A stretch of DNA of 33,611 bases from Candidatus Saccharimonadota bacterium (GTDB taxonomy: Bacteria; Patescibacteriota; Saccharimonadia; Saccharimonadales; Saccharimonadaceae): contig JAFOJO010000010.1 in NCBI GenBank assembly GCA_017421325.1, forward strand, positions 1-33,611. The letters are read 5' to 3'. Position 1 is the first letter of the stretch; each line of letters starts with the position of its first letter. The notes below the pieces were generated by a model. It saw only the letters and a list, made by a program, of their open reading frames with translations. It was not told where the DNA came from and searched no databases. This document shows positions 3,719 through 30,673 of the stretch, piece after piece. The translations under genes and the position numbers were made by a program.

Positions 3719-3783
3719 ATGCATCACCTTGTTTAATTATCTTTATCTTTGTGATGCCATTTTGTGTAAACGGGGTGTATTAC

Positions 3784-3922
3784 AAAAATGGCACCGCAAG
3801 GGGTGCTATTATCCAATAATCTTACCAGAGAGGTTCAACTACTGAAGCCTTACGGCGCCATTTTGTAGCTGAAAATCTCTTTTAGAGCAAAACACTCTGG
3901 TTTCTAATTATTGAATAATAGC
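3784..3922 (-). promoter_or_regulatory. Structured leader RNA 1 (candidate attenuator with pseudoknot)
   Basis: The leader begins at the predicted start site. P1: 3907-3922 pairs with 3805-3820 (GCTATTATTCAATAAT with ATTATTGGATAATAGC, 16 bp, one G-U). P2: 3895-3901 with 3824-3830 (ACCAGAG/CTCTGGT). P3: 3865-3873 with 3834-3842 (TTCAGCTAC/GTAGTTGAA). The loop of P3 contains AAAATGGCGCCGTAAGG (3864-3848). It is complementary over 17 positions, with two G-U pairs, to CCTTGCGGTGCCATTTT (3801-3785) just 3' of P1. That same segment can instead fold GCACC/GGTGC followed by U5 (3788-3784), a terminator-like hairpin. A third alternative pairs TGCCATTTT with AAAATGGCA about 30 nt downstream. The competing folds suggest conditional termination. 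Confidence 0.65.
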
Positions 3923-3928
3923 AATTTA

Positions 3929-9877: not shown

Positions 9878-10004
9878 TTGCATAATTCATCATATATCGG
9901 AAGCTTCGCAATGTGATAATAAATTTTATCACATTGCTCCGCCCCTTCGGCGACAAAATCATAGATTTTGCTTTTATGTTCCTCGATATTGATGAATTAT
10001 GCAA
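9878..10004. repeat. AT-rich palindromic repeat, copy A (127 bp)
   Basis: Outer arms TTGCATAATTCATCA (9878-9892) and TGATGAATTATGCAA (9990-10004) pair perfectly. An inner hairpin pairs GCAATGTGATAA (9908-9919) with TTATCACATTGC (9926-9937). A third hairpin is CAAAATC/ATTTTG. Copies B and C keep each stem with different bases. It fills the gap between two convergent stop codons and could also end both transcripts. Confidence 0.8.
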
Positions 10005-17548: not shown

Positions 17549-17553
17549 ATCTG

Positions 17554-17728
17554 CTACATAATTCATCATATCTCGGAAGCTGCGTGATGTGATAATAAAT
17601 TTTATCACATCACTCCGCCCCTGACGCTCGCTTCGCTTCGCTAGAGCGTCCCAAGGGGCTTACGGCGGCAAGAATCTGCCTTTGGCAGATTTTGCCTTTA
17701 TGTTCCTCGATATTGATGAATTATGCAG
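17554..17728. repeat. AT-rich palindromic repeat, copy B (175 bp)
   Basis: Outer arms CATAATTCATCA (17557-17568) and TGATGAATTATG (17714-17725). The inner hairpin is GTGATGTGATAA/TTATCACATCAC. The variable hairpin near the 3' end is AATCTGCC/GGCAGATT. About 40 extra bp in the middle include GACGCTC/GAGCGTC arms. It lies between comM and infC and may terminate comM. Confidence 0.8.
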
Positions 17729-17752
17729 TAGTGCCAAAACGCTAATTTACTC

Positions 17753-19268: not shown

Positions 19269-19934
19269 TTATCCTTGCCTACTAAAGGTGGTATATTTAA
19301 GGTTTTTCCTATCTTTGGCAAACTTTATCGGTCCGGAATATCCTACATCAACCCCTTCTTCAGCGGCACCACTATAGGATATAGCGTGACCTTCACCTGG
19401 GGCATCTTTATATAGGTCTATTCTGGTAAAATCGCCTTGATTATTGCGAAAACTAATAGAAAGTGGGTGCTGGATTTCTTCCCCATTCGGCGGAATTAAG
19501 GTGCCTGGTTGCTGTACGTCAAAGTCAGTTCCGTTCTCTACTCCAACTTCTTCGAGTAAATCTCCTAGATTTTCGTACCCTTGACCATAGCCATATTCCT
19601 CAGCCATAGACGTAACGTTTTTAATACTAAGTGGTTCTCCATTTTTTATCTTTCGGCTTACTTCATTCTGAGCTACGCCTATATAACTATTACCCCGTAA
19701 ATCTTCGTTCTTCATCGTTGGGCGAGTAAGTACTTCTGTGTTCTGTCGCACCCATTCTCGCCTGTGGATTAGATTATGTATGGCATTTTTGGCGCGCTCG
19801 ATGAAGCTTTGCTTTTCGCCATTTTGTTGTTCCATATTTTGCATATGTTCTTCAAAAGACGGATATTCTGTAATATCTCCGCCCTCTGACTGGCTTGGGG
19901 ACTGTTCCCCGCTTGGGAATGAATTGTGATTCAT
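19269..19934 (-). CDS. Hypothetical soluble protein (221 aa) behind a structured leader
   Basis: I recognise no family. The start is ATG 19934, where a near-perfect AAAGGAGG lies 4 nt upstream; the upstream frame is leader RNA. The first 35 residues are Ser/Gln/Glu-rich. Helical segments follow (SFIERAKNAIHNLIHRREW). From about residue 115 it alternates Gly-rich turns and strands (TLIPPNGEEIQHPLSISFRNNQGDFTRIDLY is typical of a beta fold). There is no signal peptide or membrane helix. Its leader resembles those of the two FISUMP surface genes in layout, so it may share their regulation. The function is unknown. Confidence 0.75.
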   Translation of the reverse strand: MNHNSFPSGEQSPSQSEGGDITEYPSFEEHMQNMEQQNGEKQSFIERAKNAIHNLIHRREWVRQNTEVLTRPTMKNEDLRGNSYIGVAQNEVSRKIKNGEPLSIKNVTSMAEEYGYGQGYENLGDLLEEVGVENGTDFDVQQPGTLIPPNGEEIQHPLSISFRNNQGDFTRIDLYKDAPGEGHAISYSGAAEEGVDVGYSGPIKFAKDRKNLKYTTFSRQG

Positions 19935-19973
19935 TTTACCTCCTTTTAGATTATTATTGACTCGTCGCTTAAT

Positions 19974-20105
19974 AAAAAACGACAACCGTTCTCGGCTGTC
20001 TACACCAAACAATTAATTCGATTACCGAAATTACTGTTTTTTGAACGGTTGCCGTTCACTAATTTCGGTAATTAGTAATCTTTATAATTATTTGATGTAG
20101 ACATC
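19974..20105 (-). promoter_or_regulatory. Structured leader RNA 3 (candidate attenuator)
   Basis: P1: GATGTCTACATC (20105-20094) pairs with GGTGTAGACAGC (20006-19995), 11 of 12 positions. P2: 13 perfect bp, 20060-20072 with 20021-20033 (ATTACCGAAATTA and complement). P3: TGAACGG/CCGTTCA (20058-20052 with 20048-20042). Next comes an intrinsic terminator, GACAGCCG/CGGTTGTC (20000-19993 with 19988-19981), with U6 at 19979-19974. The terminator 5' arm shares six bases (20000-19995) with P1, so P1 and terminator exclude each other. In addition CAACCGTTC of P3 (20051-20043) is complementary to GAACGGTTG of the terminator (19991-19983). Confidence 0.7.
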
Positions 20106-20108
20106 TCC

Positions 20109-20117
20109 ATTGTATCA
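20109..20117 (-). promoter_or_regulatory. Extended -10 promoter of leader 3
   Basis: TGA-TACAAT on the minus strand, followed by GGAGATGTCT. The predicted start falls on the first bases of P1. The sequence just after the -10 resembles that of leader 2 (AGAGATGTCT). Confidence 0.5.
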
Positions 20118-20136: not shown

Positions 20137-20164
20137 AAATCGCCCGGTGGGGGCGGTTTTTTGA
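20137..20164 (-). terminator. Terminator of RNase P RNA
   Basis: On the minus strand ACCGCCC-CCA-CCGGGCGA-TTTTTT directly follows the 3' end of the RNA. The mirrored A/T tracts allow action in both directions. Confidence 0.85.
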
Positions 20165-20168
20165 TAAT

Positions 20169-20507
20169 GAGCCGTCTATAAGCCGGGTTCTGTAACCATA
20201 TATAATATATGGTTGACGACCATCTATCTTGACGTTACATTGCTATAACGTTCTAGCGGTGAGCGCACATCCTCGAGCGAAGGTGTATAGTGCTCCTTGC
20301 AACAGGTAGGGTTTGCCTCCGCGCTATATCGCTACGGCGCGCTGTGGGCTCTTACCCCACTCTTTTCACCCTTACTCCTCGCGAAGAGGGGCGGTTTTGT
20401 TTCTGTGGTACTTTCCCTATCCTTACGGACGGTCGCTGTTAGCGACTACCCTGCTCTATGTTGCCCGGACTTTCCTCTTATAAAAAGCGGTCGCCTTTCA
20501 GGCTCCC
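20169..20507 (-). ncRNA. rnpB: RNase P RNA (type A-like)
   Basis: This is the catalytic RNA that matures tRNA 5' ends. Read on the minus strand it begins GGGGAGCCTG. Conserved GAGGAAAGTCCGGGC follows, then CGTAAGGATAGGGAAAGT, ACAGAAAC, GTGGGGTAAGAGCCCAC, AGGCAAACCC, and it ends ACAGAACCCGGCTTATAGAC before GGCTC. The first and last GAGCC/GGCTC pair as P1. TATAAT at 20517-20512 lies about 5 nt before the start. The length of about 339 nt is normal. Confidence 0.95.
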
Positions 20508-20554: not shown

Positions 20555-20691
20555 ATTACATAATTCATCATATCTCGGAAGCTACGTGATGTGATAATAA
20601 ATTTTATCGCATCACTCCGCCCCTACGGCGACCAAACCGCCTGTGTGGCAGTTTGGCCTTTATGTTCCTCGATATTAATGAATTATGTAAT
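20555..20691. repeat. AT-rich palindromic repeat, copy C (137 bp)
   Basis: Outer arms ATTACATAATTCAT (20555-20568) and ATGAATTATGTAAT (20678-20691) are perfect. The base pairs outside CATAATTC differ from copy A (TTA/TAA against TTG/CAA) yet stay paired. The inner hairpin is GTGATGTGATAA with TTATCGCATCAC (one G-U). The variable hairpin is CCAAAC/GTTTGG. It lies upstream of rnpB and just past the 3' end of the Nudix-RNase H gene. Confidence 0.8.
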
Positions 20692-30521: not shown

Positions 30522-30667
30522 AAAAATGGCACCGCAAGGGGTGTCTTAATCCATCAACTTATACTAGTATTACCTTAGCCTAAGCGACGAAAACCTTACG
30601 GTGCCGTTTACACTTAAGCTTAAGATGATACTAAAAGTACTAGTATTTATAATTGATGAATTAAGAC
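30522..30667 (-). promoter_or_regulatory. Structured leader RNA 2 (candidate attenuator with pseudoknot)
   Basis: P1: 30651-30667 pairs with 30543-30559 (GTCTTAATTCATCAATT with AGTTGATGGATTAAGAC, 17 bp with G-U). P2: 30638-30646 with 30561-30569 (ATACTAGTA/TACTAGTAT). P3: 30613-30623 with 30575-30584 (one bulge). The loop contains GGCACCGTAAGG (30605-30594), complementary over 12 positions to CCTTGCGGTGCC (30539-30528). That segment alternatively forms CACC/GGTG followed by U5 (30526-30522), or pairs GGTGCCA with TGGCACC further downstream. P1-P3 differ in sequence from leader 1 but keep pairing. Confidence 0.65.
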
Positions 30668-30673
30668 ATCTCT

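Follow-up and report, generated by a model that had tools for sequence, protein, structure and literature searches.

A candidate family of pseudoknotted transcription attenuators preceding a 221-aa gene and envelope genes in Patescibacteria

What occupies the stretch 5′ of a 221-aa gene in a Candidatus Saccharimonadota contig, and does it link this gene to the FISUMP surface-protein genes? The question arises in a 33,611-nt stretch of DNA (contig JAFOJO010000010.1, positions 1 to 33,611), which is referred to here as the window. The gene sits downstream of rpmI-rplT-rpmB and adjoins the RNase P RNA gene (20164-20506). Its product matched no Pfam family above cut-off and no NCBIfam entry, and has no membrane segment (best hydropathy 0.12). 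A search of relatives recovered the protein in only one (G001) of 40 genomes, because its C-terminal part is not conserved. The N-terminal motif (M)PSFEEHM.. is joined to unrelated C-termini in the window (19934-19272) and at L032 (1501-2193), L033 (1454-2247; this protein also carries an 'AIFGHGT' stretch) and L220, a pattern suggestive of a shared N-terminal signal combined with interchangeable modules.

Our analysis confirmed that the stretch 5′ of the gene is a genuine folded RNA leader, hereafter leader 3. Its fold has a z-score of -8.65 relative to shuffled sequence, a value reached by none of 200 shuffles. Its parts, with the transcription start placed from the promoter, are as follows.

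20105-19974, minus strand: leader 3, 5′ of the 221-aa gene
20109..20117, minus strand: extended -10 promoter element TG-A-TACAAT, read from the sequence, with the first P1 base 5 nt downstream
20085..20103, minus strand: P1 5′ arm, 19 nt, taken as the RNA 5′ end, with a U-G wobble at bp 9
20060..20072, minus strand: P2 5′ arm, pairing with 20033-20021
20042..20058, minus strand: P3, a local hairpin TGAACGG-CAA-CCGTTCA that contains strand A
20043..20056, minus strand: strand A, AACGGCAACCGTTC, in the apical loop, with 14 bases complementary to strand B, from duplex and covariation
20021..20033, minus strand: P2 3′ arm, P2 being nested within P1
19997..20015, minus strand: P1 3′ arm, whose last four bases, GACA, also begin the terminator 5′ arm
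19993..20000, minus strand: terminator 5′ arm (t5), GACAGCCG, read from the sequence
19978..19991, minus strand: strand B, comprising three loop bases, the terminator 3′ arm, a G and the first two T, and pairing with A
19981..19988, minus strand: terminator 3′ arm, CGGTTGTC, read from the sequence
19974..19979, minus strand: U6 tract, read from the sequence
19269..19934, minus strand: the 221-aa gene downstream of leader 3, with its SD at 19939-19945

The initial annotation of this DNA had proposed P1, P2, P3, an 8-bp terminator and a U6 tract, all of which are present, although several of its measures changed. P1 comprises 19 bp (20103-20085 paired with 20015-19997), and the intrinsic terminator reads GACAGCCG-AGAA-CGGTTGTC, G, T6 (20000-19974). 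The two share four bases (GACA, 19997-20000) and not six, a count that is reached only if P1 is extended to the GG at 20107-20108, which precedes the likely start site. The internal strand complementary to the terminator is real and spans 14 nt instead of nine, forming an A·B duplex of 14 bp (20056-20043 with 19991-19978; one G-U; -21.3 kcal/mol). P1 and the terminator had been described as mutually exclusive, which holds for the four shared base pairs and fails for the rest of P1; with -47.7 kcal/mol for the full P1 and -46.9 kcal/mol for a 15-bp P1 plus terminator, the two states are nearly isoenergetic.

We then asked how far this layout extends, using a script that detects an internal A·B pairing with a terminator end, an enclosing P1 and a U-tract. 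It returned exactly three sites in the window, leader 3 and two FISUMP leaders, and none at the same threshold in 40 dinucleotide shuffles, both strands. The layout common to the three, as originally proposed, is not due to chance.

3784..3923, minus strand: FISUMP leader 1, same layout, from P1 5′ arm to U tract
30522..30670, minus strand: FISUMP leader 2, same layout, scoring 31 bits with the leader-3 model described below

The similarity first reported between the initial bases of leaders 2 and 3 proved to be identity (GATGTCT), and leader 3 shares with the FISUMP leaders a further trait, a U-G wobble within P1 (bp 8-11).

The FISUMP family has 36 matches in the 0.86-Mb genome containing the window, where its terminator word CCTTGCGGTGCCATTTTT occurs in 43 exact copies, compared with 0-1 in a reversed control. 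Across 41 readable FISUMP leaders, the P1 and P2 sequences are almost entirely different yet paired. Strand B is invariant in the 43 copies and A varies only by C/T opposite G and A/G opposite T, the pattern used to find A having permitted only B-compatible bases; 40 of the 41 leaders fit it, and the remaining one has an inserted A. An extended -10 element precedes 34 of the 41, and the 5-nt spacing to P1 also occurs in 34. In many, the terminator stem has just 4-5 bp. The detector found no leader at the FISUMP genes of G002 and G003, so the link between leader and FISUMP gene is not universal in the genus. One locus of G003 (L136) holds what appears to be a degraded leader of the FISUMP type, carrying CTTGCGGTGCCAT and, downstream of it, TGGCATCGCAG, the other FISUMP genes of that genome having no leader.

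The A word occurs a third time, as TGGCACCACAAAG, ~25-40 nt 3′ of the U tract in nearly all FISUMP leaders (window 3740-3790 and equivalents), and this copy could pair with B after read-through. We also observed a MITE-like repeat of ~130-180 bp, bounded by the inverted repeats TTGCATAATTCAT/ATGAATTATGCAA and enclosing a CGTGATGTGATAA hairpin, at window positions 9878-10004, 17551-17731 and 20555-20691 and, behind the leaders, at L055, L063, L072 and L082; it is intergenic in several places of the genome, also between FISUMP leaders and their genes. Viral contigs contained no match to leader 3 and one FISUMP-type leader, 5′ of a FISUMP-like surface protein; this contig is probably Saccharibacterial DNA.

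A 186-bp stretch covering leader 3 was found in G154 (99%), G001 (76%), G016 and G186, and partly in G021. The genomes carrying it are named Candidatus Saccharibacteria, including Ca. Nanosyncoccus alces, and this subtype occurs once per genome in those with a match. The P1 ends, the loop and the terminator are kept in these relatives, and the P2 arms of G001, G016, G186 and G021 are fully different yet still complementary. Every A·B cell of the five-leader alignment is paired (100%), and two double changes are seen. A MAFFT alignment of FISUMP and other leaders broke P1, so the two sets were not joined in one model. Two covariance models were built: R1 from leader 3 and its four relatives, and R2 from 19 order-wide leaders. 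Both alignments include leader 3 itself, and model E-values are rough.

The initial annotation had suggested scoring leader 3 with a model of leaders 1 and 2. Run in reverse, the comparison bore out this kinship in part: R1 scored FISUMP leader 2 with 31 bits (E 3e-5 in the window), whereas most other FISUMP leaders were missed, L053 being the only further one at E <= 0.01 and R2 matching none in the window's genome. Leader 3 thus represents a sister subfamily of the FISUMP leaders and not the same sequence family. R1 also picked up leaders with different A/B words in additional genomes of the genus and, in total, matched 43 of the 295 genomes and 31 of the 143 genera of the order, the genomes being mostly metagenome assemblies. 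By script, 16 of 17 loci read from R1 matches show the same layout; the 17th (L173) has P1, A and B and a broken U tract. Members detected by R2 occur in 19 of 380 genomes sampled phylum-wide, including several families outside the order. In two genomes, leaders with P1, A·B and a U-tract but different words lie directly 5′ of serine recombinase genes (L159 ~3013, plus strand; L211 ~2781, minus strand).

Covariation supports the long-range pairing independently of the terminator. In the 19-leader order-wide alignment, P1 and A·B are paired in 94.9% of cells and 11 pairs changed on both sides, eight of them in A·B. The covariation score of P1 and A·B was 0.354 versus 0.150 for shuffled alignments, and none of 500 shuffles reached it. 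The terminator stem is nearly invariant in this alignment (99.2% paired), and four A·B columns that vary in both partners (153, 154, 159 and 160) are loop bases in the terminator, indicating that A·B is no by-product of it. A·B is thus a selected pairing. In all 17 representative leaders, the cognate duplex exceeds the 99.9% point of shuffled A words; it is 12-18 bp long, ends at or inside the U tract and, in 16 of them, covers 3-6 nt of the terminator loop.

Among 55 leaders, the first 13 bp of P1 are canonical in 99.4% of cases, compared with 52 ± 2.5% for arms exchanged from one leader to another. A 5′U-3′G wobble occurs at bp 8-11 in 45 of the 55, with leader 3 having it at bp 9; the reverse-sense G-U occurs there in one leader, and a wobble within bp 1-7 is limited to a single leader. 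In 53 of the 55, P1 and P2 are separated by a bulge lying mostly on the 5′ side. In addition, the 3′ arm of P1 contains a GG that hardly varies order-wide (A3 columns 138-139; leader 3 positions 20006-20005), with U or C as 5′ partner; it could be a contact site for a protein or a pause site for the polymerase.

The words themselves are specific. In any one genome, strand A of one type fails to match strand B of another: leader 3 A scores 34 on its own B and 11.5 on FISUMP B, against a shuffled mean of 12, and the same cognate specificity holds between two leaders of G001 and of G021. As leader 3 and FISUMP words do not cross-pair, there is no evidence for shared control through these sequences.

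The genes behind the leaders point to the cell envelope. In relatives, the leader-3 subtype precedes unrelated genes, mostly for membrane or surface proteins. The proteins encoded behind it are related in their N-terminal part in G000, G154 and G001; G016 has a membrane OB-fold protein (PF12869) there, G186 a small membrane protein and G021 a long secreted one. With gene starts called by a simple rule, a membrane-like segment is encoded behind 31 of the 38 non-FISUMP leaders with a readable gene, versus 8 of 20 other window genes, and the readable FISUMP-type genes encode surface proteins with an N-terminal membrane segment. The link once drawn between the 221-aa gene and the surface-protein genes is therefore real for the leader class and loose for the gene itself: the class is tied to the envelope, and this gene, whose leader has a private A/B word, is the exception.

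How might such a leader act? The helices, the covariation of P1 and A·B and the position after the promoter are established; A and t5 compete for B, and P1 and B compete for t5. Building on this, we propose that the family probably sets, ahead of the coding region, the choice between ending and continuing the transcription of membrane and surface-protein genes. The nascent RNA would fold into P1 and P2, leaving strand A in the apical loop. Emerging B could then pair with t5 to form the intrinsic terminator, ending transcription with a short RNA of ~130 nt, or it could pair with A, which overlaps the terminator loop and may capture B before the terminator stem closes, while P1 would simultaneously occupy the first bases of t5. 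P1 together with A·B, with P2 folded back over the one-sided bulge, would be the read-through state, assuming that A·B and P1 can coexist; a signal would be expected to tip the balance. We favour this assignment by inference, because in 16 of the 17 representatives A extends into the terminator loop. As a nested helix with P1 opened, A·B averages 9.4 kcal/mol less favourable than P1/P2, so it would matter in cis only as a fold-back pseudoknot or when kinetically trapped; as a pseudoknot on P1/P2 it would be worth the -21.3 kcal/mol of the duplex alone minus a penalty of unspecified size. We put at about even the odds that leader 3 belongs to a Patescibacteria-wide group of cis-acting, 5′-terminal transcription attenuators. 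We also considered a double switch, in which A would invariably be released from a local hairpin formed with a copy of B lying upstream, and rejected it as a general feature, as it occurs only in some lineages: this hairpin is found at p < 0.05 in 27% of the non-FISUMP leaders and in none of the FISUMP ones.

The attenuator model has to contend with the observation that an A·B duplex abutting the U tract could itself terminate. The main rival reverses the roles accordingly: A·B, as a long-range stem running right up to the U tract, would be the hairpin that terminates, and the P1/P2 rod would act as antiterminator by holding A off B. The length and end point of A·B fit this arrangement, as do the 4-5-bp t5·B stems of many FISUMP leaders, which also speak against the attenuator model; yet in leader 3 and 15 of the 17 representatives the local t5·B hairpin is a good intrinsic terminator, and P1/P2 forms earlier and is more stable, such that A·B would rarely form as a terminating hairpin. 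We regard this reversal as unlikely. Pairing in trans, whereby A of terminated leaders would bind nascent B of other leaders and coordinate a gene family, would draw on the identity of B in the genome's 43 copies, with which all A strands read can pair. It is harder to reconcile with the private words of leader 3 and of the leader pairs in G001 and G021, or with a subtype that is single in each matched genome and nonetheless keeps a covarying A·B, and we consider it improbable.

We give the same low weight to a leader that serves as a 5′-end stabiliser or a site for an RNA-binding protein, with the terminator merely setting a fixed basal level. The location of P1 at the presumed 5′ end, its fixed distance from the promoter, the fixed place of its U-G wobble and the near-invariant GG of its 3′ arm all suggest that P1 itself is recognised, but the covariation of A and B, including the terminator-loop bases, would be left unexplained. 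Finally, many copies in one genome and inverted repeats could indicate a DNA-level element, such as a mobile or recombination palindrome, and not an RNA. The fixed site directly behind a promoter and ahead of a gene, the U tract on one side only, the non-random place and orientation of the P1 wobbles (45 of 55 are 5′U-3′G at bp 8-11) and upstream flanks without shared sequence make this hardly credible.

We consider it somewhat better than an even bet that these leaders constitute an undescribed Patescibacteria regulatory RNA class, present in many families of the phylum and expanded beyond 40 copies in a single 0.86-Mb genome, which controls episymbiont envelope genes via a pseudoknotted antiterminator, with an A/B word particular to each gene or gene family inside a common outer frame. 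A recent review (PMC11665869) calls the means by which Patescibacteria change between host-attached and free cells completely unknown. A phylum-wide family of cis leaders 5′ of membrane and surface genes would be a concrete, testable candidate for part of this control and would join dozens of uncharacterised membrane proteins in one regulon-like group, and its many natural variants would offer a set for studying how nascent RNA chooses between terminator and antiterminator.

At the gathering threshold, Rfam 15 returned only RNase P, tmRNA and tRNA for the window and 32 further leader loci, the weak matches to leader 3 all being far below threshold. The literature searched contained no mention of the leader; most subscription papers and preprints were outside its scope, so a description elsewhere is possible.

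Among known systems, the fluoride (crcB) and ZTP riboswitches are pseudoknotted, with a loop that pairs with a downstream strand and strand exchange with an intrinsic terminator at the aptamer base. The leaders resemble them in that loop strand A pairs with a downstream strand in competition with an intrinsic terminator, and differ in that the A/B words vary from gene to gene, P1 and P2 are hypervariable, and neither a conserved small-molecule ligand pocket nor an Rfam match was recognised. T-box leaders likewise alternate between antiterminator and terminator, and the A word can resemble the T-box UGGN-ACCG, whereas no stem I or specifier loop was seen. Membership in that class was rejected, as the Rfam search gave no T-box match and the invariant UGGN is absent, the first position of the A word being Y/G, with C or G in many members. 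In classical attenuators, of the trp type or the pT181-type with a countertranscript, exclusive RNA helices choose between terminator and read-through. The leader family has alternative helices of this kind, terminator versus read-through; it differs in that no leader peptide was recognised, and in that strand A targets the 3′ arm and loop of the terminator and not the 5′ arm.
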